NCBI RefSeq assembly: GCF_006738645.1
Contig: NZ_AP019700.1
Location: forward strand, 1,066,001 to 1,130,000
Origin: Stella humosa
Lineage (GTDB): Bacteria > Pseudomonadota > Alphaproteobacteria > ATCC43930 > Allostellaceae
DNA length: 64,000 nucleotides
Direction of reading: 5' to 3'
Shown: piece by piece, positions 37,683-54,928 of the stretch
Layout: each line of letters starts with the position of its first letter
Numbering within the stretch: position 1 is the first letter of the stretch
The notes under the pieces: model-generated
Told to the model about the DNA's origin: nothing
Seen by the model: the letters and a program-made list of their open reading frames with translations, nothing else
Database searches by the model: none
Made by a program: the position numbers and the translations under genes

Positions 37683-38906
37683 CTAGCGGCGGCCGTCCTG
37701 GCGCAGGAACCCGACGATGGCATCGGCCGCGCGCGCCGACGACGGGCGCTGGTCGAGATCGAAGGTGTGGGCGAACAGCGCCCGCTGCTCGGCCAGGCCG
37801 GTGTCCGGCTGCTCCAGCACGGTGCGCAGGGCGGCCGGGAACTGCCCGATCTCGTCGATCACCGGGCCGCAGCGCCAGCCCAGATAGAAGGGGTTGTCCT
37901 GCCAGGCGACGCGGTGGGCGTTGAGGAAGATGCAGGGCCGTGGCCGGGCGATGAACTCGTAGAGCTGGCTGCTGACGTCGCCCGCATAGATGTCGGCCGC
38001 ATTGGCATAGGTCATGTCGACCGAGCGGTCGCTGCCGAGATCGACATGGATGTTACCGGCCCGCGCGAAACGCCGGAAGGCCAGGCGCTTGGATAGCCGC
38101 ACCGGGTCGAACAGGCGGACATGGGGGGCGAAGATCAGGTTCCAGGCGGGCGTGCCGAGGGCGAGTTCCAGCAAGGGGCGCCCCAGCACCGGCCAGGATG
38201 AGACGCGGGGGTCGAAATGGGGCGCGTAAAGGATGGTCGGCCGCTCGTTGGCGAACAGGCGCCCCGAGGCGGACGGCCGGTCGAGCAGCAGGTCGAACTT
38301 GGGATAACCCACGACCGCATAGTGCCCGGGCCGCACCAGGCCGTGGTCCAGCAGGTAGGTCTCGTACTTGCCGCCCGACAGCAGGACGAAGTCGTACTTG
38401 CGGATTTCCGGGTTGAAGCTGCGCTCGCGGTCGCCGGCGCCATGGCCGGTATGCACCAGCTTCAGCCCCGGCAGGTCGAGCTGGCGGACATAGGCGCTGG
38501 TGCGTTCGGGCGTCACCAGCGCATCGAATCCGGCCAGCAGGGCGCGGTTGTGGGCCAGCGTCGCCCGCTTGCCGGCGGTGACGTTGCCCGACAGCGCGCG
38601 ATAGAGGCGCAGCCACGCGGGCTGGCGGAGGTCGACGAAGCGCAGGCGGGCGGCTGCCTCGGGCGGCAGGTAGCGGCGGATGAAGTCGAAATGGGCCATG
38701 GTCGGCGCCAGCACCGACACCTCGACATCGCCGTGCCCGGCCGCCATCGCCTGGGCGATCGGCAGCCCGTGCAGCACTTGGTGGAACTGCGCGTTGAACA
38801 GGAATGCCACCCGCAGGGGCGGCCGGCCGGCGGCAGGGTGCGGCGACACGGGCTTCAGCGACACGGGGATTCGGCGTCCGGAATGTGGTATGTGGCGGTG
38901 CGGCAT
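37683..38906 (-). CDS. CDP-glycerol glycerophosphotransferase-like (TagF/TagB) protein
   Basis: About 407 residues. After a variable N-terminus the body (LRVAFLFNAQFHQVLHGLPIAQ, ILYAPHFDPR, DVSSQLYEFIARPRPCIFLN) matches the GT-B-like glycerophosphotransferase fold, where YAPH and DVSS segments bind the CDP donor. Known members polymerise glycerol-phosphate or modify lipids and glycans. The start is uncertain (ATG 38906 or GTG 38864). It lies at the edge of the sphingolipid cluster, divergent from a nucleotidyltransferase gene that could supply its CDP-activated substrate. Confidence 0.72.
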   Translation of the reverse strand: MPHRHIPHSGRRIPVSLKPVSPHPAAGRPPLRVAFLFNAQFHQVLHGLPIAQAMAAGHGDVEVSVLAPTMAHFDFIRRYLPPEAAARLRFVDLRQPAWLRLYRALSGNVTAGKRATLAHNRALLAGFDALVTPERTSAYVRQLDLPGLKLVHTGHGAGDRERSFNPEIRKYDFVLLSGGKYETYLLDHGLVRPGHYAVVGYPKFDLLLDRPSASGRLFANERPTILYAPHFDPRVSSWPVLGRPLLELALGTPAWNLIFAPHVRLFDPVRLSKRLAFRRFARAGNIHVDLGSDRSVDMTYANAADIYAGDVSSQLYEFIARPRPCIFLNAHRVAWQDNPFYLGWRCGPVIDEIGQFPAALRTVLEQPDTGLAEQRALFAHTFDLDQRPSSARAADAIVGFLRQDGRR

Positions 38907-39051
38907 CGCCGGCTTCGGCGGAGAGGCGGCCGCATCATATGGGCTTTCGCCTGCCGGGTGGAGGGGCGCGAGAGCCTGGTGCCTTTGAGGGATCCGGAAC
39001 CCATGCCAGTCGGAAGGCCATCCTAGTGTCCAGCATTTCCCGGACTTGCCC

Positions 39052-39816
39052 GTGAAGGCGATCATCCTTGCGGCCGGGCAGGGCCGCCGCCTGCTGCCGC
39101 TGACCGAGTTCCGCCCGAAATGCCTGGTCGAGCTGGCCGGCATCACCGTCCTGGAATGGCAGCTGCGCGGGCTGGCGGCGGCCGGGGTGGCCGACGCGGT
39201 GGTCGTCACCGGCTTCGGCGCCGACCTGATCGAGGCGCTGCTGGCCGGGCTCGATCTGCCGGGCCTCAGCGTGCGCACGCTGCACAATCCCTTCTATGCC
39301 GTGGCCGACAACCTGGCGAGCTGCTGGATCGCGCGCGGCGAGATGACGGGCGACTACCTGATCCTCAACGGCGACACGATGTTCGAGCCGGCGATCGCCC
39401 GCCGCCTGTTGGAGCCGGCGACGGCCCCGATCACCGTGACGATCGACCGCAAGGCCGCCTACGACGCCGACGACATGAAGGTCGAGCTGGATGGCTGGCG
39501 TCTGACGGCGATCGGCAAGACCCTGCCGGCCGAGCGCGTCGGCGGCGAATCGATCGGTTTCCTGCGGTTCACCGCTGAGGGTGGCGCCCGATTCGTGGCC
39601 GAGATCGAGGGGCTGATGCGGGGCGGCACCGGCCTCAAGCTCTGGTATCTCTCGGTCATCGACCGTATCGCGGCCGCCGGCACGCGGGTCGAGGCGCGCA
39701 CGATCGAGGGGCTGGACTGGGCCGAGATCGACTTCCCGGCCGATGTCGAGAAGGCCGCCCGCATGGTCGCGGGCTGGCTCGCCCCGGGCAACGGGATAGT
39801 CGCCCAGGCAGGCTGA
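39052..39816 (+). CDS. Sugar/polyol-phosphate nucleotidyltransferase
   Basis: 254 residues from GTG 39052. ILAAGQGRRLLPLT with FRPKCLVEL is the nucleotide-binding signature of NTP transferases (LicC, GlmU-N and glucose-1-phosphate types); LILNGDTMFEP holds the metal-binding Asp and AEIDFPADVEKA the second. It would make a CDP- or other NDP-activated headgroup. Near the TagF-like and CDP-alcohol transferase genes this suggests supply of activated polar groups for lipid decoration; the substrate is unproven. Confidence 0.85.
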   Translation: MKAIILAAGQGRRLLPLTEFRPKCLVELAGITVLEWQLRGLAAAGVADAVVVTGFGADLIEALLAGLDLPGLSVRTLHNPFYAVADNLASCWIARGEMTGDYLILNGDTMFEPAIARRLLEPATAPITVTIDRKAAYDADDMKVELDGWRLTAIGKTLPAERVGGESIGFLRFTAEGGARFVAEIEGLMRGGTGLKLWYLSVIDRIAAAGTRVEARTIEGLDWAEIDFPADVEKAARMVAGWLAPGNGIVAQAG

Positions 39817-39817
39817 C

Positions 39818-40597
39818 CTAGCCGCGGCGTCGCAGCAGGGTTTCCGCCAGCGTCAGGTCGTCGGGCTTGTCGACGTCGACGGCGGCCTCGCCGAACGGCA
39901 GAGTCACCACGGCCGCCCGCACATGGGCGATGCGCCCGAAGCGCTGGAGGGCCGCCGCCAACGTCAGCCGGCCCAGCGCGAAGCGCAGCAGGGCCATCGG
40001 TCCCAGCAGGCGCACCATGCGCAGCGGCCGCTTGCGGTGGATTTCCACCTCCCGCCACAAGGCCACGGCGCCCTTGGCGGCCGGGGTGGCCATGCAGAAC
40101 AGGTTGCAGCCCGAGACCGCGCCGTCGGCAAAGCGCAGGAAGGTGCGCCTGGTCCCGGGCGCAGCCGCCATCACCGCGTCGGCGCGGGCAACCGCGGCCA
40201 CCACATCGGTGCCGGGCGGAAGGTGGTCCAGGAAATGGGTGACCCATTCCGGTCGCAGTAGGGCATGGTCGGCCGTCGTTACCAGCAGCGGCGTGCCGAG
40301 TTCGGCCAGGGCGGCCGCCACGCTGAGGCTTGGGCTGCCGGCGGCCGGCAGGAAGGCGAGGCGGCCGGCGTCGGCCGCGGCTGCGATCTCGGGCAGTTGC
40401 CGGGCGATGGCGGCATCCTCGATGCAGACGACGATCCGGCCCACCCCCGGCGTCGCCTCCAGCGCCCGGACAACGCGCACCAGCATCGGCACGCCGCCGG
40501 CCGGGATCAGCGCCTTGTGCTCCACGCCTGCGGCCACGGCCATCGGGTCACTGGGCCCACGGGATCCGGCCAGAACGAGGGCGGTGACCGGCGTCAC
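39818..40597 (-). CDS. MobA-like NTP transferase
   Basis: 259 residues from a GTG overlapping the ceramide-synthase-like stop (GTGA). LVLAGSRGPSDPM is a diverged nucleotide-binding loop, HKALIPAGGVPML follows as in MobA-like proteins, TTADHALLRPEW holds the metal Asp and VDVDKPDDL the C-terminal Asp. Translational coupling to the acyltransferase gene implies a role in the same lipid. It converges on the other nucleotidyltransferase with one base between the stops. Confidence 0.8.
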   Translation of the reverse strand: MTPVTALVLAGSRGPSDPMAVAAGVEHKALIPAGGVPMLVRVVRALEATPGVGRIVVCIEDAAIARQLPEIAAAADAGRLAFLPAAGSPSLSVAAALAELGTPLLVTTADHALLRPEWVTHFLDHLPPGTDVVAAVARADAVMAAAPGTRRTFLRFADGAVSGCNLFCMATPAAKGAVALWREVEIHRKRPLRMVRLLGPMALLRFALGRLTLAAALQRFGRIAHVRAAVVTLPFGEAAVDVDKPDDLTLAETLLRRRG

Positions 40598-41727
40598 GCC
40601 AGGTCCTTGCCGTAGATGCGATAGGTCTTGTAGGCGTCGCCGCCCAGCGCGGCGTTGATCCGGCGCATCGGCTGGTTGTCCTCCAGGATCCAGGACAGCT
40701 CGATCTGGCGATAGCCCAGCGCCATGCCCTCGCGCCGCAGCTCGGCGATCAGCAGGAACGGCATCAGGCCGCCCAGCATGCCCTGGACGTAGCGTCGCCG
40801 CACGCCCATCAACGGTACCCGGGCCGAGGTGGGGTTGCGCACCTTCAGGCGCCACAGCAGCCGGGCCCAGCCCAGCGGCAGCAGCCGGCCGTCAAGGTCG
40901 GCGATGGCGGCGTTCAGGTTGGGCAGGCCGACGATGAAGCCGGCCGCCTCGCCGTCGATCTCGGCAAACCAGATCAGGCGGCGATCGACCAGCGGGCGCA
41001 TGGACTTGCCGAGATGCGCCGCCTCGGCCTCGCCGAGCGGCAGGAAGCCCCAATTGTCCGACCAGGCATCGTTGAAGATGTCGGCCAGGGTGCGGACCTC
41101 CTGGTCGAAACGGCGCATGTCGACCTGGCGCAGGCGCATGTTGGCCGGCAGGGGACGCAGCAGCCGGCTGGTCAGGGCGGCCGGCAGCGGCCGCCGGCAG
41201 TCATAGATATAGGCCAGCAGGTCCTTGGCCTTGGCATAGCCCTGCTGCTCGAGGTGCCCGGCGACATGGCGCGGGTCGTGGCCCATCAGCAGCATCGGCG
41301 GGGTGTCGAACCCGTCGACCAGAAGGCCCGCCTCCTCGTTGATCGACAGGTTGAACGGCCCCAGCACGCGGCCGATGCCGCGCTGGCGCAGCCAGTCCTC
41401 GGCCGTCCGCATCAGGGCGGCGAAGACGGCCGGGTCGTCCTCGCCGGCGACCAGCCCGAAATGGCCGACCCTGTGGCCGTCCTGGGCGGCGATCCGCCGG
41501 TCGATCTGGGCGCTGATGCGGCCCACGTCCCGGCCGTCGCGCCGGGCGATCCAGAACTGGACCTCGGCATGGGCAAAGAAGGGGTTGTGCCTGGCGCTCA
41601 GCGCCTCGCGCCGCTCCATCAGCAGCGGCGGGACCCAGGCCGGGTCGCCGCGATTGAGGCGGTAGGGGAGGCGGATGAACCGCTCCATCATCGCCTTGCC
41701 CTCGACGGGGACCATTTCGATCGTCAT
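40594..41727 (-). CDS. GNAT-like N-acyltransferase, candidate bacterial ceramide synthase
   Basis: 377 residues. N-terminal RLNRGDPAWVPPL and FNLSINEEAGLLVDGF, and C-terminal RRINAALGGDAYKTYRIYGK, are typical of the large GNAT-fold family once mis-named dATP pyrophosphohydrolase. In Caulobacter a member of this family (CerS/bCerS) acylates the long-chain base or 3-oxo-sphinganine with fatty acyl-CoA. The rest of the sphingolipid genes lie within 13 kb here, so the same role is inferred. Coupled to the downstream NTP transferase gene and 18 bp after the LptG-like gene. Confidence 0.78.
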   Translation of the reverse strand: MTIEMVPVEGKAMMERFIRLPYRLNRGDPAWVPPLLMERREALSARHNPFFAHAEVQFWIARRDGRDVGRISAQIDRRIAAQDGHRVGHFGLVAGEDDPAVFAALMRTAEDWLRQRGIGRVLGPFNLSINEEAGLLVDGFDTPPMLLMGHDPRHVAGHLEQQGYAKAKDLLAYIYDCRRPLPAALTSRLLRPLPANMRLRQVDMRRFDQEVRTLADIFNDAWSDNWGFLPLGEAEAAHLGKSMRPLVDRRLIWFAEIDGEAAGFIVGLPNLNAAIADLDGRLLPLGWARLLWRLKVRNPTSARVPLMGVRRRYVQGMLGGLMPFLLIAELRREGMALGYRQIELSWILEDNQPMRRINAALGGDAYKTYRIYGKDLA

Positions 41728-41745: not shown

Positions 41746-42816
41746 TCACTGGGCATCGAGTTGCAGCAGGACGAAGGCGCCGATGCTGCCGAAGAAGCCC
41801 AGGGCCGCCCACGCCGCCAGCTCGGGCGGCAGCCGCCCGGCCTCGCCCAGCGCCACCAGGATGCCGTCCACCAGCAGGAACAGCATGCCGAGGCCGAGGC
41901 CGATCAGCAGCCGGCGCCCGGCCTGGCCGGCCCGGCGGTTGGCGGTCGCAGCCGGCGTCGCCAGCAGCAGCATGACCAGCGCCGACAAGGGCTCGGCGAA
42001 GGCGCGCTGCAGGCGCATCTCGTAATAGGCCGGCGCCCGCGCAGTCGCCTGGTCGCCGGTCAGCGCGCTGCGGGCAGCACCGGCCGAGACATGGCCGAAG
42101 GGCAGGGTAAGCTGGATCAGGTCGGACGGGGTGAGCCTGGTTTCCCACGTCCGGTCGGCCGGCTCCGACGGCGTGATGCGGCCGTCGACCACCGTCGATT
42201 CGGTCGCTCCCAGAAGGCGCCAGCGGCCGTTCTCCAGCACGGCCTGGGGGGCGAAGATGCGCACTTCCAGTTGCTCGCGGGCGCCCCGACGATAGATGCG
42301 CACCCCCTCGGCCCGGGTGCCGGCCTGGCTGATCCGGTCGATCGCAACCAGGTCGCCGTCGGCGCGCACCCACATCGCCTTGGGCTGGCGCTGCTCCTCG
42401 GTCGGCTCGCGCTCCCACCAGATCGCCAGACGCCGCTCGAACCGCGGCACCACCTGGTCGGCGATGGCGAAATGCAGCCCGGCGATCGCCAGCACCGGCG
42501 GCAGCAGCCCCAGGACGAGGCGAAAGACCGGCAGGCCGGCCATGCGCAGGACGACGATCTCGTTGTTGCGGGCCAGCGTGGCGAAGGTCAGGAGCCCGCC
42601 CACCAGCACGCCCAGCGGAAAGGTCTGCTCCAGGATCACCGGCAGCCGCAGCAGGGCATAGTAGCCGATGCCCCATGCCCCCTTACCCCGCTCCATCACC
42701 TCGGTCGCGGCATCGAGCAGGTCCAGCACCTGCATCAGGGCGGCGAAGACCAGCACCGCGCCCACGGTGCGCGCCAGGAACAGGCGGCCGACATAGCGCG
42801 CGAGGCGGCCGGTCAT
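41746..42816 (-). CDS. LptG/YjgQ-family permease
   Basis: 356 residues with three N-terminal and three C-terminal membrane helices around a periplasmic beta-jellyroll-like domain (about 130-250). LDLLDAATEVMERGKG, PLGVLVGGLLTFATLARNNEI and LRMAG mark the family. LptF/LptG pairs extract lipid A from the inner membrane for the Lpt bridge. ATGA overlap with the LptF-like gene. Located in a sphingolipid cluster directly before the candidate ceramide synthase, so it may handle sphingolipid instead of or besides LPS. Confidence 0.88.
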   Translation of the reverse strand: MTGRLARYVGRLFLARTVGAVLVFAALMQVLDLLDAATEVMERGKGAWGIGYYALLRLPVILEQTFPLGVLVGGLLTFATLARNNEIVVLRMAGLPVFRLVLGLLPPVLAIAGLHFAIADQVVPRFERRLAIWWEREPTEEQRQPKAMWVRADGDLVAIDRISQAGTRAEGVRIYRRGAREQLEVRIFAPQAVLENGRWRLLGATESTVVDGRITPSEPADRTWETRLTPSDLIQLTLPFGHVSAGAARSALTGDQATARAPAYYEMRLQRAFAEPLSALVMLLLATPAATANRRAGQAGRRLLIGLGLGMLFLLVDGILVALGEAGRLPPELAAWAALGFFGSIGAFVLLQLDAQ

Positions 42817-44114
42817 TGTGCGCCCGGTCCCGCCGCCGGGGTGCGGCGGCGCCGGAACAGCCCGCGAATGGCCATCAGGCCCAGCTCGATGCGCTCCACC
42901 AGCCAGGTGAAGCTGTTCTGGCCGGGCCGCGCCTGGCTGCTGCGGAAGAGCCACAGGCAGAGGATCGTGAACAGGGTGAACGGCACCCACACGGCCGGCA
43001 CCGGCGGCAGCCGGCCGGTCGTGGCCAGGCTCTGCCCGAGCTGGATCCCATGGTGGTAGAGGACGAGGATGACGGCCGCCATGACGAGGCCGGACCCGCG
43101 CCGCCCGCGCTTGGCCGCCATGCCGAGCGGGATCGCCAGCAACGGCAGCAGCGGCAGCGACAGGGCGCGCACGATGCGGGTGTGGAACTCCGCCGCCAGC
43201 CGGCGCCGGGGCATGGGGCCCGCCGCGCCGGGCTTCCGCTCGGCTGCCGGCTGGTGCATCGCCTGCCACAGCTCGATCATGGTCAGCTCGCGCTCGCTGT
43301 CGCCGCGCGTGCGATAGGGCGGGGCGTCGGGATTGAAGTCGGTGTTGAGCGTCAGGTCGGTGAACTGGACCAGGCTCGGCCGCTCTGCCGCGGCGCGGGG
43401 GGCCTGCGGGTGGGCGACGCCGGCCAGGGCGGCTGCCGGTGGCTGGCGCCAGTGCTGGCCGTTCTTCAGCCGCAGGACCAGGCGCTGGCCGCCGTCGACC
43501 AGGGCCAGCCGGCCGCTCTCGGCGGTGAAGACCTCCTCGATGCCGTCGACGATGCGCTGGGCGAAGACCCCCTCCAGGTAGGTGCCGCTGTCATCGGCGC
43601 GGTCGGCGGTGACGGTGAAGCCCTTGGCTGCCTTGACGAAGCTGCTGGGTTCGACCCGCGCGTCCCACCCGGCATTGACCGCGGCATGCAGGACCGCACG
43701 ATAGGCGTAGCGGCTGTAGGGCTGCATGAAGCCGAACAGGGCCATGCTGAAGAGCGACAGCACGACGCCGACCCAGAGCAGCGGGGCGGCGATGCGGGCG
43801 ATCGACAAGCCGGCCGACAGCATCGCCTCCAACTCGCTTTCCTCGCTGAGCCGGGCGATGACGAAGAAGATGCTGATGAAGAAGGCGGCCGGCAGGGCCA
43901 GTCCCAGATAGTGCGGGATGAGGTTCAGCAGCAGCTCGACCACCGACTCGAGCGCGCCGCTCGAATGGGCCAGCAGGTTGAAGAGACGCAGCAGCCGTTC
44001 CAGCAGTAGGGCGGTCAGCACGACGCCCAGCGACACCGCGAGCGGACGGGCCGCCTCGGCCAGGAGATAGCGGTCGATCAGCCGCGGCAGGAACCGGGGC
44101 CGACGCCATGCCAC
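42813..44114 (-). CDS. LptF/YjgP-family permease
   Basis: 433 residues from GTG 44114 (AAGGAT eight bases before). Six predicted helices (three plus three) with a large periplasmic domain between; RLIDRYLLAEAARPLAVSL, SEESELEAMLSAGLS and PLLPLLAIPLGMAAKRGRR are LptF-like. Forms a heterodimer with the LptG-like product encoded by the overlapping next gene; the ATPase (LptB type) is not in the window. Confidence 0.88.
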   Translation of the reverse strand: MAWRRPRFLPRLIDRYLLAEAARPLAVSLGVVLTALLLERLLRLFNLLAHSSGALESVVELLLNLIPHYLGLALPAAFFISIFFVIARLSEESELEAMLSAGLSIARIAAPLLWVGVVLSLFSMALFGFMQPYSRYAYRAVLHAAVNAGWDARVEPSSFVKAAKGFTVTADRADDSGTYLEGVFAQRIVDGIEEVFTAESGRLALVDGGQRLVLRLKNGQHWRQPPAAALAGVAHPQAPRAAAERPSLVQFTDLTLNTDFNPDAPPYRTRGDSERELTMIELWQAMHQPAAERKPGAAGPMPRRRLAAEFHTRIVRALSLPLLPLLAIPLGMAAKRGRRGSGLVMAAVILVLYHHGIQLGQSLATTGRLPPVPAVWVPFTLFTILCLWLFRSSQARPGQNSFTWLVERIELGLMAIRGLFRRRRTPAAGPGAQ

Positions 44115-44133: not shown

Positions 44134-44577
44134 TCAGGCGTTGGCGGACGACCAAAGCTGGCGCAGGTGTTGGGCGAGGGCGGCCTGGCCGGCCTCGTCC
44201 AGCGCCACGCCGCTGCCCAGGTTGGGCGGGCCGGGCCAACCGGCATCGGCATAGGCGACGCCGTCCCGCTCGCGCGTGCCCGGATGGCGGGGGATGACGT
44301 GGAAATGCACGTCGGGGTCGACCATCATCAGCATCAGGTAGTTGATGCGCTCATAGTCGACGAACCCCTTCAGCATCCGCTCCACCCCGGCGATCACCGG
44401 CTGCAGGTCGGCGAAGGCGGCGGGGCTGGCGGCGCCGAAGGCCGTCACGGGCTCCTTGCAGACAAGCACCAGCGAGCCCAGAGTCACCTGCTGCGGCCGG
44501 ACCAGCACCGTCCAGTGGGCCGTCTCGGCGACCAGCGTCCGCGGAAAACCGAACTTCGTCATGGTGGCGTTGGACAT
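44134..44577 (-). CDS. HIT-family nucleotide hydrolase/transferase
   Basis: 147 residues. The histidine triad DVHFHVIPRHPG (about 89-100) carries the nucleophilic His. HIT proteins cleave or transfer nucleotidyl groups (AMP-lysine, Ap4A, GDP-sugars). AGGAAG precedes the ATG. It heads the leftward run HIT-LptF-LptG-GNAT-NTP transferase, so action on a nucleotide-linked lipid intermediate is conceivable. Confidence 0.87.
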   Translation of the reverse strand: MSNATMTKFGFPRTLVAETAHWTVLVRPQQVTLGSLVLVCKEPVTAFGAASPAAFADLQPVIAGVERMLKGFVDYERINYLMLMMVDPDVHFHVIPRHPGTRERDGVAYADAGWPGPPNLGSGVALDEAGQAALAQHLRQLWSSANA

Positions 44578-44654
44578 GGGGCTTCCTGGCGGTTATGTCG
44601 GCGCCGGCTCGGGCGGGCGAGCATTGTTATCGAACACCCCAGGATCGGCACAAG

Positions 44655-45137
44655 ATGAAGGCAGCATGGTCGGGTCGCGGTTGGGCGGTGGCCGGTTTGG
44701 CCGCCCTGGCATTGGCCGGTGGAACCGCTACTGCATCGGCCCAGAAGGCCTGCGAAGGCAAGCCTGATGAAACCCGCCTGCACATCACCGTCAAGGGGGT
44801 GCGGGCGGCGGCGGGCGAACTGACCATCACCATCTATCCCGACGATGCCGCGCGCTTCCTGTCGCCGCGCGGACGGATCGCGCGCATCCGGGTGCCGGCG
44901 GCCAAGCCGGTGACGACCGGCTGCGTTGCCGTGCCCGCCCCCGGCAACTATGCGGCCGCCGTCTATCACGACGAGGATGGCGACCGGAAGTTCGGTCGCA
45001 GCATGGTGGGGCTGCCGACCGAGGGCTATGGCTTCTCCAACGATGCGCCGGCCACGCTGGGCCTGCCGACGCTGGAGCAGGCGCGCTTCGCGGCCAGGGT
45101 CGGCGACAACAAGCTGACCATCCACCTCAAATATTGA
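44655..45137 (+). CDS. DUF2141 family exported protein
   Basis: 160 residues. A signal peptide (hydrophobic AVAGLAALALAGGTATASA, cleavage near 30) is followed by a beta-rich domain with VYHDEDGDRKFGRSMVGLP and GYGFSNDA, typical of DUF2141. Function unknown; members are periplasmic or outer-membrane associated. Its last 11 bases overlap the convergent phosphoesterase gene. Confidence 0.85.
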   Translation: MKAAWSGRGWAVAGLAALALAGGTATASAQKACEGKPDETRLHITVKGVRAAAGELTITIYPDDAARFLSPRGRIARIRVPAAKPVTTGCVAVPAPGNYAAAVYHDEDGDRKFGRSMVGLPTEGYGFSNDAPATLGLPTLEQARFAARVGDNKLTIHLKY

Positions 45138-46050
45138 GCGGCGCCGGGATGTCCAGGCGGTAGCGGCCGACGGTCGCAAAGCCCGTGCCTGTACCGTCGA
45201 GGCGGCGGACGACGACGTTGGCTTCCCAGCCGCGGTCCGTTCTGGTGATGGTGAGGAGGTGCCAGCGCGCCGCCTCGCCGTGATGGGACGGCAGGGCGGA
45301 GGCCGACGAGCAGCCGAGCGACGCGATCGGGGCGGCCGGTCCCACCAGCGAATCCAGGCGGCCGACATGGCCATGGCCGTGCAGCAGCAGCTCGATCCCG
45401 CTGCGGGCGATGACGGCGGTCAGCCGCTCCCCATCGTCCAGCGCCTTGCGCCGCGATTCGCCGGCCCGGTGGACCGGATGATGGACCAGCAGGATGCGGA
45501 AGAGGCCGCGGCGACCGAGATCGTCGAGGATGGCGGACAGGCGGTCGGCCTGCGTTTGGCCGATGTGGCCGGTCGCCAGCAGGGGAGCGGTCGGCACGGC
45601 GGAGCGCACGCCGACCAGGGCGACCTGGCCGCGCACCCGCACGAAGGGAAAGGCGTCGGGGCCGGGCGGGGCATCGTCGCCCTGCATCCATTCCTGCCAG
45701 CGACCCAGCCCGTCGGCCCAGGGGACCGGCACCAGGGCGTCGTGGTTGCCGGGCACCACGGTGACGCGGCCGGGCGGCCCCACCGTTTCCAGCCACTGCC
45801 GGGCGGCGGCGAATTCGGCCGGCAGGGACAGGTTGACGAGGTCGCCGGTGACGGCGACATGATCGGGTGCATGGGCGCGGACATCGGCCAGCAGCGCATC
45901 GACGACGGTGCGGCGATGAATCCGATGGCGCGAACGCCGCCAGGAGATGTAGCTCAGCAACCGCTTGGACAGGAGATGGCCCAGCGCCGGCCGGCCTTCC
46001 GGCAGCGCCAGGTGGATGTCCGAGAAGTGGGCGATGGTCAGGCTGGGCAA
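45127..46050 (-). CDS. Calcineurin-like metallophosphoesterase
   Basis: 307 residues from a TTG start. All five metal-site blocks are visible: FSDIHL, VTGDLVN, PGNHDAL, LVHHPVH and LHGHGHV. Enzymes of this class include cyclic-nucleotide phosphodiesterases and the LpxH-type lipid A pyrophosphatases. Within the lipid cluster, splitting of a pyrophosphate-linked lipid precursor is possible but unproven. Diverges from the CDP-alcohol transferase operon. Confidence 0.87.
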   Translation of the reverse strand: MPSLTIAHFSDIHLALPEGRPALGHLLSKRLLSYISWRRSRHRIHRRTVVDALLADVRAHAPDHVAVTGDLVNLSLPAEFAAARQWLETVGPPGRVTVVPGNHDALVPVPWADGLGRWQEWMQGDDAPPGPDAFPFVRVRGQVALVGVRSAVPTAPLLATGHIGQTQADRLSAILDDLGRRGLFRILLVHHPVHRAGESRRKALDDGERLTAVIARSGIELLLHGHGHVGRLDSLVGPAAPIASLGCSSASALPSHHGEAARWHLLTITRTDRGWEANVVVRRLDGTGTGFATVGRYRLDIPAPLNI

Positions 46051-47307: not shown

Positions 47308-48257
47308 CGCGGCTGGGGCTCGTGCACAACCCGCGCAGCGGCCGCAACCGGTCGGCGGTGGCCGGCTCGCGCCAGCGCGCGGCCGATGCGCTGGGCGTGC
47401 GCTTCGCCGCACCGGCCACGGCCGACGAACTGCGGCGCGACCTGGCCGATTTTGCGCGCCAGGGGGTCGGCATCGTCGTCATCGACGGGGGGGACGGCAC
47501 GGTGCGCGAGGTGCTGACCCAGTTGCCCGCAGCCTATGGCGACGACCTGCCGGCCGTGGCCATCCTGGCATCCGGCCGCACCAACCTGGTGGCGGCCGCC
47601 ATCGGCACCGGCGGGCGCGGCCCGGCCGGGCTGAAGCGGTTGGCCGAGCTGGCGCGCCGGCGCAAGCTGGCCGACATCGTGCGCCGGCGCCCGGTGCTGA
47701 CCGTATCCTGGCCGGATGGGTCGCGCCCGCCGGTCAACGGGCTCTTCCTGGGAGCGGCAGCCTTCACCCGCGCCGTCGGCGTGGCGCAGGCGGCGATGGG
47801 GCGCAGCGGCGTCGCCCGCAAGCCGGCCGTCCTGCTGACCATCGCCTGGTCGTTGCGCCGCGCCCTGTTCGGGACGCAGCCGGCCTGGACGGCAGGGGAG
47901 CCGATGGCCGTTGCCGTCGACGGGGCCGCCCAGCCGGCGGGCGATCGCCTCATTTTCCTCGCCACCACGCTCGACCGGCTGATGCTGGGGCTCTGGCCAT
48001 TCTGGGGCGGCGGGCGGGGGGCTGTCCGCTTCCTCGACGTCGCAGCCGAGCCGGAGCGCCTGGGCACGGCCCTGTGGCGCGTCCTGCGCGGCCGCCCGGC
48101 GCCCTGGATGGCGACAGATTATCGCAGTGGCCGGGCCGACAGCCTGGCCCTAACCCTGGACCGGCCCTTCATCCTCGACGGCGAGGCCTTCGCGGCGGGC
48201 GTCGATGGCCGGATCGTCATCCAGGCCGGCCCTGAATTCGGATTCGTCGTGCCATGA
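47304..48257 (+). CDS. DAGK-family lipid kinase, candidate ceramide kinase
   Basis: 317 residues. HNPRSGRN (about 8-15) and GGDGTVREV (about 62-70) are the ATP-binding motifs of diacylglycerol/sphingosine kinases; the C-terminal half is the beta-sandwich (ILDGEAFAAGVDGRIVI). Caulobacter has a ceramide kinase of this family (CpgB, as I recall) in its sphingolipid locus. Here it is coupled by ATGA to both neighbours and probably makes ceramide-1-phosphate. Confidence 0.82.
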   Translation: MTRLGLVHNPRSGRNRSAVAGSRQRAADALGVRFAAPATADELRRDLADFARQGVGIVVIDGGDGTVREVLTQLPAAYGDDLPAVAILASGRTNLVAAAIGTGGRGPAGLKRLAELARRRKLADIVRRRPVLTVSWPDGSRPPVNGLFLGAAAFTRAVGVAQAAMGRSGVARKPAVLLTIAWSLRRALFGTQPAWTAGEPMAVAVDGAAQPAGDRLIFLATTLDRLMLGLWPFWGGGRGAVRFLDVAAEPERLGTALWRVLRGRPAPWMATDYRSGRADSLALTLDRPFILDGEAFAAGVDGRIVIQAGPEFGFVVP

Positions 48258-49186
48258 TCGACCCATTGGATCGCCTCGTCGGCCGGGAACTGTCGCGCCC
48301 GGTGCCGGCGCCCGCCATCGCCCTTGCCCGCCATCTGGCCGATCGTTCGCCCAGCGTCGCGGCCGTCCTCTTCTACGGCGCTGCCCTCCGCGACGGGGAC
48401 ATGGACGGCCTGCTCGATTTCTACGTCCTGGTGGATTCGCTGGCCGACTGGCACGGCAGCCGCTGGCGCGCGACCGCCAACCGCCTGCTGCCGCCCAATG
48501 TCAGCTATGCCGAGGTCGCCCACGAGGGCCGCATGGTCCGCGCCAAGGTGGCGGTGATGGGGGTCGACCAGTTCGCGCGCGCGGCCGGTTTCGCCGGGGC
48601 GGATAGCACGATCTGGGCCCGTTTCGCCCAGCCCGCCGCACTGCCCTATTGCCGCGACGAGGCGACGCGGGGGCGGGTGTCTGCCGCGATCGGCGATGCG
48701 ATCGTCACCGCGGCGCGGTGGGCGGCCCTGCTGGGCCCGCTGGCGGGCGGGCCGCTGGTATACTGGCGTGCGCTATTCGCCAACACCTACCGGGCCGAAC
48801 TGCGGGTGGAGGGGGCAGGGCGCTCGGACCTGATCGTCGGCAGCGCGCCCGATCGCTACCAGCGGCTGCTGGCGCCGGCCTGGGACCGGGCCGGGATCGC
48901 CACGGTCGAGCACCCGGACGGCACGATCTCGCCGCTGATCCCCGATGTCGACCGCCGTGCCGCCGCACTGGCCTGGGGCCGGCGGGTGCGGGTCGGCAAG
49001 GTGCTGAACATCCTGCGGCTGACGAAGGCCGCCTTCACCTTCGTCGATGGCGGCCACTACCTGGCCTGGAAGATCGAGCGCCACACCGGGACCCGGCTGG
49101 CGCTCACGCCGTGGCAGCTTCGCCACCCCGTGCTGGCAGGCCCGTTCCTGCTGTTCCGGTTGTGGCGCCGGGGCGTGGTGCGGTAG
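48254..49186 (+). CDS. Tam41-like phosphatidate cytidylyltransferase family protein
   Basis: 310 residues. Block-by-block resemblance to mitochondrial CDP-DAG synthase Tam41: LFYGAAL for YGSGV, LDFYVLVDSLADWHGSRW for the nucleotidyl-transfer Asp block ending in WHS, PPNVSYAEVAHEGRMVRAKV for NPFxxxxGxxxKYGV, ALFANTYRAELRVEG for SYAGDIR, and the C-terminal ILRLTKAAFTF helix. Tam41 makes CDP-diacylglycerol from phosphatidate and CTP. Following a lipid kinase gene, this enzyme would make a CDP-lipid, perhaps CDP-ceramide. Commonly annotated hypothetical; my assignment rests on recalled sequence. It converges with spt, six bases between stops. Confidence 0.68.
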   Translation: MIDPLDRLVGRELSRPVPAPAIALARHLADRSPSVAAVLFYGAALRDGDMDGLLDFYVLVDSLADWHGSRWRATANRLLPPNVSYAEVAHEGRMVRAKVAVMGVDQFARAAGFAGADSTIWARFAQPAALPYCRDEATRGRVSAAIGDAIVTAARWAALLGPLAGGPLVYWRALFANTYRAELRVEGAGRSDLIVGSAPDRYQRLLAPAWDRAGIATVEHPDGTISPLIPDVDRRAAALAWGRRVRVGKVLNILRLTKAAFTFVDGGHYLAWKIERHTGTRLALTPWQLRHPVLAGPFLLFRLWRRGVVR

Positions 49187-49192: not shown

Positions 49193-50410
49193 TCAGCCGG
49201 TGGCAGCCATCGGCTGCGGGGCCAGCACGCCCAGTTCCTCGCCCACGGCCGCGAACATGGCGATGGCCGTGTCGATCTGCTGCGTGGAATGGGCAGCGCT
49301 GACGCTGCAGCGCAGAATCGCCGAGCCGTTCGGCGTCGCCGGCGGCAGCGCCAGGTTGACGTAGAGCCCGCTCTCCAGCAGCCGGTTCCAGAAGGCGACC
49401 GCGAGGTCGCGGTCTTCCTGGATCACGGCCACGATCGGGCTCGGCTCGGAGCCGAGGCGGAAGCCAAGCTGCTCCAGGCCCGCATGGAAGCGGCGGGAAT
49501 TGGCGCGCAGCCGTGCCCGCAGGCCGGGGTCCGTGCGCAGCCGCTTCAGCGCCTGCAAGGTGGAGGCAACCAGCGACGGCGGCAGCGAGGCCGTGAACAT
49601 ATAGGGCCGGCAGGCGACCCGCAGGACGTCGAAATCCTCAAGGTCGGAGACGCAGAAGCCGCCGATCGTGCCCAGCGTCTTGGAGAAGGTGCCGACGATG
49701 AAGTCGACCTCGTCCTCGACGCCGGCCGCCTCGGCCAGGCCGCGGCCCTTCTGGCCCAGCACGCCCAGCGAGTGCGCCTCGTCGACCAGCAGATAGGCGC
49801 CGGCCTCGGCTTTGACCGCCGCGATCTCGCGCAAGGGCGCGGCGTCGCCCAGCATGGAATAGATGCCCTCGACCACGATCAGCTTGCTGCCGGTGGCGGG
49901 CAGGCGGGCCAGCCGCTTGCGCAGGTCCTCGGGGTCATTGTGGCGGAAGCGGATGACCTGGGCCGTGCCCAGCCGCGCGCCGTCATAGATGCTGGCGTGG
50001 CTGTCGGCGTCGATGATCAGGTAGTCGCCCTTGGCGACCAGCGTCGAGATGATGCCCAGGTTCGCCTGGTAGCCGGTGGTGAACACCATGCCATGGGCGC
50101 GACCGTAATAGTCGGCCAACTCGCGCTCCAGCCGGGTGTGGCCGTCATAGCTGCCGTTGGCGATGCGCGAGCCCGTGGTGCCGGTGCCGGACTGCTGCAA
50201 CTGGTCGATCCCGGCCTCGATGCAGGACGCGTCGAAGGTCAGGCCCAGATAGTTGTTCGTGCCGAAGAGAATGGTGCGCTTGCTGCCGCGCAGGCCTTCG
50301 GTCGGGGACAGGATGCGGTCGAAGCGGACGGCGAACGGGTCGCTGCCCTGGCTTCTCAACTCCTGGTATGCGCCGCGCAGGTGAGCGAACTTCTCGAGGA
50401 TCGCCATCAT
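49193..50410 (-). CDS. spt: Serine palmitoyltransferase (alpha-oxoamine synthase family)
   Basis: 405 residues; condenses L-serine with a fatty acyl thioester to 3-oxo-sphinganine, the first step of sphingolipid synthesis. PLP residues: His near 138 (DADSHASIYDG), Asp and His in LVDEAHSLG (about 208-216) and Schiff-base Lys244 in TFSKTLGTIGG. The pattern is that of bacterial SPT rather than glycine-using AONS/KBL enzymes. Starts in TGATG overlapping the dedicated ACP gene, which should carry its acyl donor. Confidence 0.88.
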   Translation of the reverse strand: MMAILEKFAHLRGAYQELRSQGSDPFAVRFDRILSPTEGLRGSKRTILFGTNNYLGLTFDASCIEAGIDQLQQSGTGTTGSRIANGSYDGHTRLERELADYYGRAHGMVFTTGYQANLGIISTLVAKGDYLIIDADSHASIYDGARLGTAQVIRFRHNDPEDLRKRLARLPATGSKLIVVEGIYSMLGDAAPLREIAAVKAEAGAYLLVDEAHSLGVLGQKGRGLAEAAGVEDEVDFIVGTFSKTLGTIGGFCVSDLEDFDVLRVACRPYMFTASLPPSLVASTLQALKRLRTDPGLRARLRANSRRFHAGLEQLGFRLGSEPSPIVAVIQEDRDLAVAFWNRLLESGLYVNLALPPATPNGSAILRCSVSAAHSTQQIDTAIAMFAAVGEELGVLAPQPMAATG

Positions 50411-50658
50411 CAGGCCTTCGATTGAATGTCTTGGATCGTGCGGGCAAGGTCGGCGACGGTCTGGATCTCCGGCAACATTTCCAAGGGAATGGAAATATCG
50501 AAGGCGTCCTCAAGCTTCATCACGAAGTTCATGATGGTCAACGAATCCAGTCCTAGGTCCCTGGAGATGTCTGTAGTCTTGCTGATCGGGATGTTCTGTT
50601 CGACGACCGATCGGAGCTCGGCGATGATCCGTTCCTCTAGTGCTTCTATAGACTGCAT
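50410..50658 (-). CDS. acpR: Acyl carrier protein dedicated to sphingolipid synthesis
   Basis: 82 residues, acidic, with the phosphopantetheine Ser39 in LGLDSLTIMN. Encoded directly before spt with overlapping codons, as AcpR in Caulobacter; presumably charged by the acyl-ACP synthetase at 51745. The 128 bp upstream (50659-50786) is AT-rich, contains two GTGAACC direct repeats and should hold the promoter; no gene is seen there. Confidence 0.9.
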   Translation of the reverse strand: MQSIEALEERIIAELRSVVEQNIPISKTTDISRDLGLDSLTIMNFVMKLEDAFDISIPLEMLPEIQTVADLARTIQDIQSKA

Positions 50659-50786: not shown

Positions 50787-51743
50787 TCAATACAGTAAGT
50801 TCTTAACTCGATACCACTCAACGGTTTGCCGGAATCCCTCGGTCAACTGCGTCTTCGCAATAGTCATTCCAGCGGGGGGCAGCTCGTCCGCGCCGATGCT
50901 CCAGTCGGGATGGGCGATCTCGCGGATCTTGGCGGGCGACATCGCCGCCGGCCGGCCGGTGGCGCGGGCGATGGCACTAACGCCGAGCGCGAGCAGGGCG
51001 AGCGCCGGCACCGGTATGGGCAATCGCCGCAGCGGCCGGCCGAGGGCGGCGCCCATCGCGGCCGCCACATCCGTCCAGCCATATCCTTCGGGCCGGCCAT
51101 CGGCCAGGGCGTGGATCCGGCCGGGCGGGGCATCGCCGGCCAGGCTGGCGATCATGGCGGCGGCGTCCTCGACATGCAGCAGGGTCAACCGGGCTTCGGG
51201 CCGGCCCAGCATCGGCATCAGGCCGCGGCGGGCGATCTGGAAGAAGGGCAGCAGCTCGCGGTCGCCTGGCCCATAGATCGCGGTCGGGCGCAGGATCAAC
51301 CATTGGTCCGGCGGCAGCGCCGCGATCACCGCGGCCTCGCCCGCGGCCTTGCTGGCGGCGTAGGCCGACAGGTGCGGCGCCCGGGCGGCCAGGCTGGAAA
51401 CCAGCACCAGGCGCGCCGTTGCGCCATGCCGGCGCACGGCGTCCGCCAGCCGAGCGGTCCCGTCGCGGTTGACGGCGAAAAGGTCCTGGTCGCGGCCGGC
51501 CTTCACCAGGCCCGCGGCATGGACGATGACCGCGGCACCCGACACCAGCCGCGCCAGCGCCCCGGCATCGCCCAGGCCGCCCGGCACCACCTCCAGCGCC
51601 AGGTCTTGCCAGCGGGCGTCCACCGGGTCGCGGCGGGCCAGGATGCGCACCTGGTAGCCGCAGGCGTCGAGTGCCTGCACCAGCGGCCGGCCGAGAAACC
51701 CCGTGGCGCCCGTGACCGCGGCGACTGGCCGGGCCCTGTCCAT
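50787..51743 (-). CDS. cerR: NAD-dependent epimerase/dehydratase family reductase, candidate ceramide reductase
   Basis: 318 residues, extended SDR fold: TGATGFLG (about 11-18), VIVHAAG, SSLAARAPHLSAYAASK with Ser, Tyr and Lys of the catalytic triad. In Caulobacter a protein of this family (CerR) next to spt reduces the 3-oxo group of oxidised ceramide. Here it is one base downstream of the acyl-ACP synthetase gene and near spt, so the same role is inferred. Confidence 0.82.
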   Translation of the reverse strand: MDRARPVAAVTGATGFLGRPLVQALDACGYQVRILARRDPVDARWQDLALEVVPGGLGDAGALARLVSGAAVIVHAAGLVKAGRDQDLFAVNRDGTARLADAVRRHGATARLVLVSSLAARAPHLSAYAASKAAGEAAVIAALPPDQWLILRPTAIYGPGDRELLPFFQIARRGLMPMLGRPEARLTLLHVEDAAAMIASLAGDAPPGRIHALADGRPEGYGWTDVAAAMGAALGRPLRRLPIPVPALALLALGVSAIARATGRPAAMSPAKIREIAHPDWSIGADELPPAGMTIAKTQLTEGFRQTVEWYRVKNLLY

Positions 51744-51744: not shown

Positions 51745-53487
51745 TCAGACGGCCGCGCGCGCGGCCTCGGCCGGGGTGAAGGCGCCGCTGCGATAGATCT
51801 CGCGCGCCTGCGCCCGGCTCAGCTTGCCCGACGAGGTCTGCGGCAGGCTGCGGGGCGGCACCAGCGTGACCGACACCTCGATGCTGTGGCGCGCGCGGAT
51901 AAGGCGGACGATCTCCTCCTGCAGCGCGGCGCGCTCGGCCTGGTCGACGGGTCGGCACTGCACCAGCACGACCACCTGTTCCTCCGCTGCCGTGTCGAGC
52001 GCGAAGGCGACGACGTCGCCCGTGCGGAGCAGGGCGATCTCGGTCTCGATCGTCCATTCCAGGTCCTGCGGCCAGACGTTGCGGCCGTTGATCAGGATCA
52101 GGTCCTTGGCCCGCCCGGTGATGACGATCTCGCCATCGGCCATGAAGCCGAGGTCGCCGGTATCGAGCCAGCCGTCCGCCGACATGACCAGCAGGGTCTC
52201 GTCCGGTCGGTCGAAATAGGCATCCATCAGGCTGGGGCCGCGGGCGAAGATGCGGCCGACCTGCCGCTCCGGCAGCACCGCGCCGCCGGGGCCGCGCACT
52301 TCCATGGCGTGGCCGGGCAGGACCGGGCCGCAGCGCACGAAATCGCGCGCGCGGGGGGCATCGGCGGCGGGCGTGGCGGCCGACCCGTCGCGCTCCAGCC
52401 GGTCGGTGTCGACGCGCTCGGTGACGAGGCCCCGGTCGAGCGGGGCGAAGCTCAGCGCCAGCGTCGCCTCGGCCATGCCGTAGCTGGCCAGGAAGGCGCG
52501 GGCGCCGAAGCCGCGCGCGGCGAACGTATCGGAGAAAGCCTGCAAGCGGGCCGGCCGGATCATATCGCCGCCCACGCCGGCGACCCGCCAGCGGCCGAGG
52601 TCGAGGTTTTCGATGGAGGCGGTCTCGGCCCGCCTGGCGCACAACTCGTAGCCGAAGGTCGGGCTGTAGGAGATGGTGCCGCCATTGCGGCCGATCAGGT
52701 CGAGCCACAGCAGCGGCCGGCGGGCGAACTCGCGCGTCGGCAGCAGGTCGACGGAAAGCTGCGTCAGCATCGGCGCCAGCAGGAAGCCGACCAGTCCCAT
52801 GTCGTGATAGAACGGCAGCCACGAAACGCAGCGGTCGTCCGCCGTCGTCCGCAGCCCATGGGCGCTGATCGCGCGCGCGTTGGCCATCAGCGCGCGCTGG
52901 GTGACCGAGATGCCGAGCGGGAAGCGCGTGCTGCCGGATGAGAATTGCAGGTAGAGCAGGGCTTCCGGGTCGGCCGCGGGCAGGCCCGGGCCCTGGCCGC
53001 CGGCCGCCCGCAATTCGGCCACGGTGCCCAGCAGCTTCATCGGCAGCCCGTCCACGGCCAGGCGCAGCCAGCCATCGAGCGACGCCGGACCCAGGGCTGC
53101 CACCGCGCCGGCCGATTGCGTCATGCGGCGCAGGTTGGCGATGTAGCCGTCCTTGCCGCCGACCGTCGTCGGCAGCGGCAGCGGCACCGGGATCAGGCCC
53201 GCATGCAGGCAGGCGAAGAAGGCGCGAACGAAGTCGCCGTCGGTCTCGGCGACCAGGGCCACCCGCTCTCCCGGCGCCAGCCCTGCCGCCAGCAGCGTGC
53301 GGGCAAGGTCGATCGCGTCCGCCCGGAGTTGGGCATAGGGCAGGGTTTCCACGAGCTGGCCGCGGCCGGAATAGAAGTTCAGCCCCGATCTGCCGCCGGC
53401 GGCATATTCCAGGGCTTCCTGGATGGTCTCGAAGCTGGCTGTGCGCTGGCAGGCAAGCCCGCTGGCGGTCGGGGTGGGAAGGATCAT
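51745..53487 (-). CDS. aasR: Acyl-ACP synthetase (AMP-binding, FAAL-like)
   Basis: 580 residues. Adenylation motifs in order: FSSGSTRFPLG, YGMAEATLALS (typical of fatty-acid adenylating FAAL enzymes), DTGDLGF, GRAKDLILINGRNVWPQD and SSGKLSRA with the catalytic Lys. It would adenylate a free fatty acid and load it on the dedicated ACP for spt. Known in Caulobacter as AasR. Overexpressed neighbours: cerR downstream with one base between. Confidence 0.85.
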   Translation of the reverse strand: MILPTPTASGLACQRTASFETIQEALEYAAGGRSGLNFYSGRGQLVETLPYAQLRADAIDLARTLLAAGLAPGERVALVAETDGDFVRAFFACLHAGLIPVPLPLPTTVGGKDGYIANLRRMTQSAGAVAALGPASLDGWLRLAVDGLPMKLLGTVAELRAAGGQGPGLPAADPEALLYLQFSSGSTRFPLGISVTQRALMANARAISAHGLRTTADDRCVSWLPFYHDMGLVGFLLAPMLTQLSVDLLPTREFARRPLLWLDLIGRNGGTISYSPTFGYELCARRAETASIENLDLGRWRVAGVGGDMIRPARLQAFSDTFAARGFGARAFLASYGMAEATLALSFAPLDRGLVTERVDTDRLERDGSAATPAADAPRARDFVRCGPVLPGHAMEVRGPGGAVLPERQVGRIFARGPSLMDAYFDRPDETLLVMSADGWLDTGDLGFMADGEIVITGRAKDLILINGRNVWPQDLEWTIETEIALLRTGDVVAFALDTAAEEQVVVLVQCRPVDQAERAALQEEIVRLIRARHSIEVSVTLVPPRSLPQTSSGKLSRAQAREIYRSGAFTPAEAARAAV

Positions 53488-53545
53488 CGGCGCCTGATAC
53501 TAGAATTACGCGCGAACCAATAGTGAATCGCGGATTGCCCGGGGG

Positions 53546-54928
53546 CTATTCGCCCGGCCCGGCGGCACGCGGCCGCCCCCGGCCGCCCCCCGACTGGCCG
53601 TGATGCCAGCGCAGCACGGCTGCGAACTGGCAGGCGAACAATAGCAGAGCGCCGCCCAGAATGCCCGCGCCCGCGCCCGTCAGCCCGTAGCGGTCCACCA
53701 GGAACAGCGCGGCCGGCAGGTAGAGCGCGATGGTGACGGCGCGGATGACGAGGGCGGCCGACGCCTCGCCGACCGAGATCAGCAGCGGTTCGAAGGGCAG
53801 GGCGGCAACGCCGACGGCGGCCGCCGCCACCACCCAGACCATGATCGCCGCACCCGCCTCGAACTCCGGCCCCATCACCAGCCGCAGCGCGGGTGCCGCC
53901 GTCAGCAGCACGGCCGATACCAGGACCAGGGCGACGACGGCGGCGATCACGCCCACCTGGAAGACGAGCCGGCGCAGGTCGCCCAGCTTGCGGCTGGCCC
54001 ACAGGTCGGCCAGTTCGGGATAGAGGGCTGGCACCAGCAGGCGGGCGGGCTTGGCGATGGCGTCGCCGACCTGCCGGGCGACACGGAAGAGGGCCGCCTC
54101 GCGCGCGCCCAGCATGGCGCCGATCATCAGCACCGTCAGTTGCTTGAAGCCGATATTGAGCGTGCTGTTGAGGTTGGTGGTCCAGACGAACTTCCACAGG
54201 CCGGGAAAGCCGGCGGCCCCGCGGGGGCCGCCGGCCGGCATGGCGGCAAGCCAGCCGCGCCGGCCGAGCTGCTGCCAGGCGCAGCCGAAGAGCGTGGCGC
54301 AGCTCAGCAGGGATGCCCCGTACCATACCGCCAGGAAGACCAGCAGGTCGCCGCCCAGCACAAAGGCAAATCCGGCCCCGACCAGGCGCACGAGGGAGGC
54401 GACATTGCCCTGGACGGCCATCAGGTCGAATCGGTCGACGAGGCGCAGCACGCCGGTCGGCGTGGCGGCCACCATGAAGGCGACCGAGGTGGTATAGAGC
54501 ATGGCGGCCGGCACGGCGGCGGGCGTCCAGCCCAGCCACGGCCCCAGCCAGGCGGCGCCGGCGACGCCGAGCAGCATGCCGGCGATGGCGCTGTAGAGGT
54601 CCAGCCGCAGGCTGAAGCGCAGCAGCCGGCGGAAATCGCCCAGCCGGCCCTCGCGCAAGGGCACGGTGCCGTAATGGATGATGGCCTGCCAGGACTGAAA
54701 CTTGCTGATCTCGCTCACGGTCTGGGCAAAGGCGTGGATCAGGATCAGCACGCCGAACTGCTCGATGCCCAGCGTGCGCGCGGCCAGGGCCATGTAGGCC
54801 AGGCTCAGCACTGCGCCCACCGACTTGCCCGCCAGCAGGACCGAGGCATTGGCCAGCACGCCCCGCAGCATGCCGCGCCGCGCGACCGCCAGGCTCGGCG
54901 CGCCGGCTGTGGCGGGCTCGTCAGTCAT
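53546..54928 (-). CDS. MOP-superfamily lipid/oligosaccharide flippase (Wzx-like)
   Basis: 460 residues, about 12-14 hydrophobic helices (GVLANASVLLAGKSVGAVLS at the N-terminus; FKQLTVLMIGAMLGAREAALF in the middle) as in polysaccharide export flippases. It moves lipid-linked glycans or lipids across the inner membrane. It ends 58 bp before the acyl-ACP synthetase start, same strand, which ties it to the sphingolipid genes; glycosylated or phosphorylated ceramide could be its cargo. The 118 bp upstream (54929-55046) hold no gene. Confidence 0.82.
   Translation of the reverse strand: MTDEPATAGAPSLAVARRGMLRGVLANASVLLAGKSVGAVLSLAYMALAARTLGIEQFGVLILIHAFAQTVSEISKFQSWQAIIHYGTVPLREGRLGDFRRLLRFSLRLDLYSAIAGMLLGVAGAAWLGPWLGWTPAAVPAAMLYTTSVAFMVAATPTGVLRLVDRFDLMAVQGNVASLVRLVGAGFAFVLGGDLLVFLAVWYGASLLSCATLFGCAWQQLGRRGWLAAMPAGGPRGAAGFPGLWKFVWTTNLNSTLNIGFKQLTVLMIGAMLGAREAALFRVARQVGDAIAKPARLLVPALYPELADLWASRKLGDLRRLVFQVGVIAAVVALVLVSAVLLTAAPALRLVMGPEFEAGAAIMVWVVAAAAVGVAALPFEPLLISVGEASAALVIRAVTIALYLPAALFLVDRYGLTGAGAGILGGALLLFACQFAAVLRWHHGQSGGGRGRPRAAGPGE

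Follow-up and report, generated by a model that had tools for sequence, protein, structure and literature searches.

The 64,000-nucleotide stretch analysed here (the window, positions 1,066,001–1,130,000 of the single-contig, 5.83 Mb, 98% complete genome of Stella humosa; window G+C content 70%) contains, between window positions 37683 and 54928, a cluster of 17 genes that is very probably the orthologue of the phosphosphingolipid cluster of Caulobacter and would make and export an acidic ceramide lipid. The system itself is already known: Olea-Ozuna et al. (2024; PMC11324152) describe CC_1168–CC_1152 of C. crescentus as a 17-gene anionic phosphoceramide cluster with proposed Lpt2 transport, and the present cluster adds another member to it, lacking only lptC2. 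The new results are a strict pairing of CpgA with CpgD among genomes, and the case that TagA (CC_1167) and a DUF2141 protein are probably overlooked members of the pathway.

The present cluster shares 16 of the 17 gene kinds of CC_1168–CC_1152 by position and family, including LptF2/LptG2 and the flippase, and has the same block running from the flippase to the second nucleotidyltransferase. The two clusters differ in that lptC2 is absent from the cluster here, in that tagA adjoins cpgD here and the flippase gene there, and in that the DUF2141 gene stands here between the HIT-like and phosphoesterase genes, an arrangement shared by some Phenylobacterium loci and by the cluster in Caulobacter genome G072. 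A point against the comparison is that loci L058, L061 and L118 of Caulobacter sp. stood in for C. crescentus at the sequence level. The order in L118 (Caulobacter sp. UNC358MFTsu5.1) is lptC, tagA, flippase, aasR, cerR, acpR, spt, cpgC, cpgB, cpgA, phosphoesterase, HIT-like, lptF2, lptG2, cerS and second nucleotidyltransferase, with cpgD about 3 kb further on; because this order agrees with the published CC_1168–CC_1152, tagA is CC_1167 by position. One region of the window holds the five ceramide genes, CpgA–D, the second nucleotidyltransferase and the phosphoesterase. This match in set and order supports the initial annotation of the sequence, according to which a decorated, anionic ceramide would be produced and would arrive at the outer membrane. 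The genes are as follows.

37683–38906, minus: putative TagF-like GT-B phosphotransferase (TagA), at the position of C. crescentus CC_1167; weak PF04464, profile match to Cps3D, predicted model
39046–39816, plus: CpgD relative, predicted cytidine triphosphate (CTP):phosphoglycerate cytidylyltransferase (CC_1152 type); NTP_transf_3, E 1.3e-12
39818–40597, minus: second nucleotidyltransferase (CC_1153 type, CofC/IspD-like); NTP_transf_3, E 2.7e-12
40594–41727, minus: CerS, predicted GNAT-type ceramide synthase (CC_1154 type); Acetyltransf_1, E 2.4e-5
41746–42816, minus: LptG2-like permease; PF03739, E 2e-67; the LptF and LptG names within this pair are provisional
42813–44114, minus: LptF2-like permease; PF03739, E 3e-67; name provisional, as above
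44134–44577, minus: HIT-like protein (position of CC_1157); PF01230 weak, E 0.02, under its cut-off
44595–45137 (likelier start 44655), plus: DUF2141 protein, probably secreted, periplasmic; PF09912, E 2.6e-24
45127–46050, minus: calcineurin-like metallophosphoesterase (CC_1158 type); PF00149, E 1.5e-12
46132–47307, plus: CpgA relative, CDP-alcohol phosphotransferase with N-terminal extension (CC_1159 type); PF01066, E 4e-9
47304–48257, plus: CpgB relative, predicted DAGK-type ceramide kinase (CC_1160 type); PF00781, E 1.1e-11
48254–49186, plus: CpgC relative, Tam41-like nucleotidyltransferase (CC_1161 type); Foldseek search of the predicted model
49193–50410, minus: Spt, serine palmitoyltransferase; NF047599, 666 bits; 2x8u, E 1e-142
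50410–50658, minus: AcpR, acyl carrier protein; PF00550, E 2.4e-13
50787–51743, minus: CerR, extended short-chain dehydrogenase/reductase; PF01370, E 4.7e-22
51745–53487, minus: AasR, acyl-ACP synthetase; PF00501, E 9e-45
53546–54928, minus: flippase, polysaccharide-synthesis type (CC_1166 type); PF01943, E 6e-11

Most of the 17 genes are separated by little or no spacing. Starting at the high end, the minus strand carries flippase, aasR, cerR, acpR and spt; next come cpgC, cpgB and cpgA on the plus strand, the phosphoesterase (minus) and DUF2141 (plus) genes, a minus-strand run of HIT-like, lptF2, lptG2, cerS and second nucleotidyltransferase, and finally cpgD (plus) and tagA (minus). As initially annotated, spt overlaps the acyl carrier protein gene, by a single shared base, and the acyl-ACP synthetase gene adjoins that of the reductase, with one base between aasR and cerR. 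Given the chosen starts, 4-base overlaps join lptF2/lptG2, cerS/second nucleotidyltransferase, cpgA/cpgB and cpgB/cpgC; the open reading frame starts at 39287, 40855, 43269 and 44252 are probably over-extended, and the coordinates listed above are the likely starts. Each gene kind of the initial annotation is present, with relatives in other spt loci, and the "three other nucleotide-handling genes" named there are probably the two NTP transferases (39046–39816, plus; 39818–40597, minus) and the HIT-like protein. The TagF-like and DUF2141 genes are the two that the initial annotation left unnamed.

The identity of the spt product was the check set beforehand, since grouping with glycine-using KBL or AONS enzymes would speak against sphingolipid synthesis. 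The product scores 666 bits against the NCBIfam serine palmitoyltransferase model NF047599 (cut-off 500) and falls under the cut-offs of both AONS (bioF; 333 vs 426 bits) and KBL (321 vs 460 bits); against NF047603, another serine palmitoyltransferase model, it reaches 514 bits, under the cut-off of 670. Its best solved relatives are Spt chains (2x8u, E 1e-142). Assignment to KBL or AONS is consequently rejected, and the product is a serine palmitoyltransferase, with serine and acyl-AcpR as predicted substrates. CerS has no NCBIfam match at E 0.01.

Conservation was assessed in several sets. The spt profile scan provides the best 80 of at least 587 confirmed stretches, many of these loci falling short of the full 21 kb; a set of 42 spt-bearing genomes, picked by hand, is biased, all having been found through spt; and 387 genomes of the class, the window's own included, were scored for the best 5–7 candidates per genome, so that counts may be low. 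All association counts and p values below ignore phylogeny, which weighs against reading them at face value. Around spt, relatives are found in the 80 loci as follows: acpR 79, aasR 67, cerR 64, cerS 50, lptF2 45, phosphoesterase 44, lptG2 43, cpgC 39, cpgB 38, cpgA 30, HIT 28, second nucleotidyltransferase 25, flippase 24, DUF2141 21, cpgD 17 and tagA 13. Genome G003, of the same genus, keeps all 17 genes at 61–85% identity with order and relative orientation unchanged, so the grouping is more than chance; seven window genes from outside 37683–54928 have zero matches at E 1e-3 in 39 kb of it, and together these results support the cluster boundaries as initially drawn. Genome G008 (same order) has 15 of the 17 genes on a 29.9 kb contig, without tagA and the flippase. 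Within the genus the spt cluster is present in G000 and G003, and no close spt is found in G001 and G002 (best matches 34%), which indicates a patchy cluster, gained or lost within the genus. The absence from two of the three other genomes of the genus could also suggest that the cluster is decayed or silent, but none of the 17 frames is interrupted and G003 keeps every one, which makes this explanation very improbable. Another kind of spt locus occurs in L049, L052, L059, L066 and G006 (L035), where acpR, spt and DUF2141 lie close together and where some loci have only distant LptF/LptG-like or CpgD-like genes (22–32% identity); such loci perhaps serve a different sphingolipid.

The following pathway is proposed for the window cluster, its early steps having published support in C. 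crescentus that is carried over by homology. AasR would load a fatty acid onto AcpR, Spt would condense the AcpR-bound fatty acid with serine, CerS and CerR would complete dihydroceramide, CpgB would phosphorylate it, and CpgD would make CDP-glycerate. Thereafter, Tam41-like CpgC may use CTP to convert ceramide-1-phosphate to CDP-ceramide, from which a transferase would form ceramide phosphoglycerate (CPG), and CpgA may then move phosphoglycerate from CDP-glycerate to give CPG2, with the second nucleotidyltransferase and the phosphoesterase presumably assisting.

The assignment of the last step is sharpened by the distribution of CpgA and CpgD, which are each found in 28 of the 42 genomes, the two sets being identical. 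CpgA scores 37.5 bits against PF01066 (cut-off 22), and its motif D239xxDGxxAR..G256xxxD260xxxD264 is invariant in all 14 aligned sequences; the CDP-alcohol phosphotransferase motif is D-x2-D-G-x2-A-R-x8-G-x3-D-x3-D. Among solved structures the CpgD profile matches CTP:phosphocholine cytidylyltransferase (1jyk), 4jd0 and IPCT-DIPPS (4mnd), and in NCBIfam and PDB profile comparisons each half of this archaeal protein (4mnd, NF041135) is resembled by one of the pair, the cytidylyltransferase half by CpgD and the CDP-alcohol transferase half by CpgA, although the halves are two separate genes here and the substrates are expected to differ. The shared set of genomes and the resemblance to the IPCT-DIPPS halves support CpgA as the enzyme using CDP-glycerate, as proposed in PMC12275187 and PMC13228409. 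A point against the proposed pathway is published genetics, in which cpgA is dispensable for CPG.

A head group other than phosphoglycerate, for example phosphoglycerol or phosphoinositol, would account for the resemblance of the CDP-alcohol transferase to inositol-phosphate synthases as well, and substrate preference is not readable from sequence. However, the proteins encoded at the corresponding positions of Caulobacter sp. L118 share 56% identity with CpgA and 48% with CpgC, the genome of L118 has a strong CpgD match (388 bits), and such a head group is accordingly judged improbable; the CpgB counterparts, at only 34% identity, weigh the other way for orthology. A second, divergent CDP-alcohol transferase (33–36% identical to CpgA) lies between lptG2 and cerS in G008, L056, L068, L085 and L086.

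For CpgC, the evidence is structural. The predicted model (predicted local distance difference test, pLDDT, 89) retrieves Tam41 chains at Foldseek ranks 1–5 (E 8e-9 to 1.4e-7; next rows E 1e-4), with TM-scores by query length of 0.50–0.54 and 12–14% identity. CpgC has no Pfam match up to E 1 and no NCBIfam match at E 0.01, and a Tam41 chain is not among the matches of its profile search of solved structures; since no Tam41 sequence-family match is recognisable, CpgC is named Tam41-like only. Unlike the mitochondrial and bacterial Tam41 CDP-DAG synthases, CpgC is expected to use ceramide-1-phosphate. That Tam41 is the best match of the model supports a role of CpgC in the CDP-ceramide step; an NDP-ceramide step was already suggested from an InterPro domain (PMC11324152).

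Of the 42 genomes, 34 have CpgC and 33 the second nucleotidyltransferase; the one difference is the draft genome G069. The second nucleotidyltransferase matches the CofC model TIGR03552 weakly (E 8e-4, far under cut-off). A rule that the second nucleotidyltransferase implies CpgA/CpgD or TagA held in 33 of 33 genomes of the first set, in which the five genomes that have it without CpgA all have TagA (unlinked and low-scoring in G061 and G062). The rule failed among the 387 genomes, where only 2 of 20 such genomes have TagA, and is rejected; 7 of the 20 score below 205 bits for the second nucleotidyltransferase and may hold paralogues.

TagA most likely acts as a further head-group transferase, whose donor would be CDP-activated phosphoglycerate or something similar. 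PF04464 is matched by ten of the 14 family members when E values up to 1 are admitted (2.5e-5 at best); the protein from the window reaches E 0.054 and 12.9 bits, under the gathering cut-off of 22.1, and is for this reason called TagF-like and not a PF04464 member. Searched against the PDB, the TagA profile finds Cps3D, a capsule polymerase of TagF-like kind, at E 0.0025, then an unrelated AP2-factor chain (0.027) and, weakly, TarL (0.34); there is no NCBIfam match at E 0.01. The predicted model (pLDDT 87) has a GT-B fold. VIA-align places TagF at the top (Z 24.3), tied with UDP-GlcNAc 2-epimerases (23.7), and Foldseek ranks MshA first and TagF second; TagA is not set apart from other GT-B enzymes by structure alone. 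The family conserves the stretches HGAGDR, APH and DVSSQ, which tentatively resemble TagF catalytic motifs.

The position of tagA relatives within these clusters varies, with at least six arrangements: divergent from cpgD (window and G003); on the cpgD strand, 28 bases ahead of that gene (G079/L072); on the far side of cpgD and a phosphoesterase (L070); ahead of the flippase (Caulobacter loci, L048, L069); flanked by flippase and aasR (L043, L112); on the opposite strand, with DUF2141 and flippase on either side (L046); ahead of aasR, no flippase being seen at that place (L114, L119); and after spt (L077). Locus L114 (Gluconacetobacter azotocaptans) contains three TagA-like genes (962–2098, 12491–13642 and 13639–14763), in a genome (G098) without CpgA/CpgD matches.

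Nineteen of the 42 genomes contain TagA, with 26 genes in total, and manual reading links 15 of these genes, from 13 genomes, to the cluster. All 19 genomes have the second nucleotidyltransferase (33 of 42 overall; Fisher p 0.002). Among the 387 genomes, 10 of the 11 with TagA have the second nucleotidyltransferase (45 of 387, a proportional share being about 1.3; p 2e-9) and 8 have CpgA (25 of 387; p 1e-8). Published cofitness of CC_1167 is 0.57 with spt and 0.54 with CC_1159 (PMC11324152). Several observations weigh on the other side: 11 of the 26 genes are not seen linked or lie on other contigs, four of them in G068; 11 of the 19 genomes contributed rows to the TagA profile, having been chosen for the tagA in their locus; G162 carries TagA but neither the second nucleotidyltransferase nor CpgA; and TagA is absent from 14 of the 28 CpgA/CpgD genomes, so it is not generally needed for CPG2.

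The same paper calls CC_1167 "probably unrelated", which implies that TagA is an ordinary surface-polysaccharide transferase present here by chance. The unlinked genes would fit this explanation, but the repeated linkage in several arrangements, the strong co-occurrence and the cofitness values make it unlikely, though it keeps some weight. Alternatively, TagA rather than CpgA might be the general user of CDP-glycerate that turns CPG into CPG2: TagF uses CDP-glycerol in similar chemistry (PMC12275187), and tagA and cpgD are divergent neighbours in the window, tagA lying just before cpgD in G079. Such a role conflicts with the 14 CpgD genomes that lack TagA while all 28 have cpgA, and with the assignment of the step to CpgA by Caulobacter genetics and by papers of 2025 and 2026; TagA as the general partner of CpgD is rejected, and as the general CPG2 enzyme it is quite improbable. 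Co-occurrence, linkage and cofitness instead argue that TagA probably belongs to the pathway as an extra, not universal, head-group transferase.

The arrangement recalls the TagD/TagF wall teichoic acid pathway in pairing a TagF-like protein with a cytidylyltransferase whose product is a CDP-activated, glycerol-like donor. It differs in that CpgD is without homology to TagD (PMC12275187), in that a ceramide lipid would serve as acceptor, and in that TagA lies under the Pfam cut-off. No link of TagF-like proteins to sphingolipids was found in the open-licence literature, the supplements of PMC11324152 not being covered.

The DUF2141 gene is the only copy found in this genome, and the N terminus of its product, read from 44655, is signal-peptide-like as judged by eye. 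Among 45 spt-bearing genomes (the 42 plus G000, G003 and G008), 26 contain 36 DUF2141 genes, and 18 of these genes, from 17 genomes, are no more than 10 kb from a pathway anchor, where 0.14 would be expected; in 14 control genomes the family is found in Caulobacter vibrioides only. A countervailing observation is that DUF2141 also lies beside crtG in Sphingomonadales (PMC5989583), so that the domain is not confined to the sphingolipid pathway. The protein has no NCBIfam match at E 0.01, and, within the same literature coverage as for TagF-like proteins, no link between DUF2141 and sphingolipids was found. As a guess, the DUF2141 protein, which is probably secreted, helps in the periplasm, perhaps in lipid export. 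A bolder combined proposal, that TagA, as an enzyme so far lacking from bacterial phosphosphingolipid synthesis, elongates the ceramide head group into a longer, teichoic-acid-like chain from a CDP-activated donor and that DUF2141 is a periplasmic carrier or holder of the lipid during its transit to the outer membrane, is speculative and rather doubtful at present.

The flippase and a second LptF/LptG pair would carry the finished lipid to the outer membrane. The genome contains four LptF/LptG genes, in two pairs (the cluster pair and one near 2.01 Mb), as expected if the cluster pair is a second, dedicated set; second LptF/LptG copies have been proposed, as a proposal only, for phosphosphingolipid transport (PMC11324152). 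A point against such a system is that no LptC match is found among the scanned window products, the rest of the genome not having been searched, whereas in L118 an LptC gene precedes tagA (PF06835, E 6e-15). Nevertheless, some cluster members without lptC2 are counted in PMC11324152. Outside the cluster, a chaperonin-family (Cpn60_TCP1) open reading frame (34479–36272, minus) lies next to an amidase-family one.

The cluster extends the published system to another genus, a system whose anionic phosphoceramide CPG2 can replace lipopolysaccharide in C. crescentus (PMC12275187, PMC13228409). The comparison makes testable the user of CDP-glycerate, for which the pairing says CpgA, the role of CpgC in forming CDP-ceramide, and CC_1167, left out of the published pathway, as a head-group enzyme. 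DUF2141, a domain of unassigned function, gains a concrete context. Were the reading of TagA as an elongating enzyme and of DUF2141 as a periplasmic helper true, the end product in Caulobacter and its relatives would be longer than the reported CPG2.

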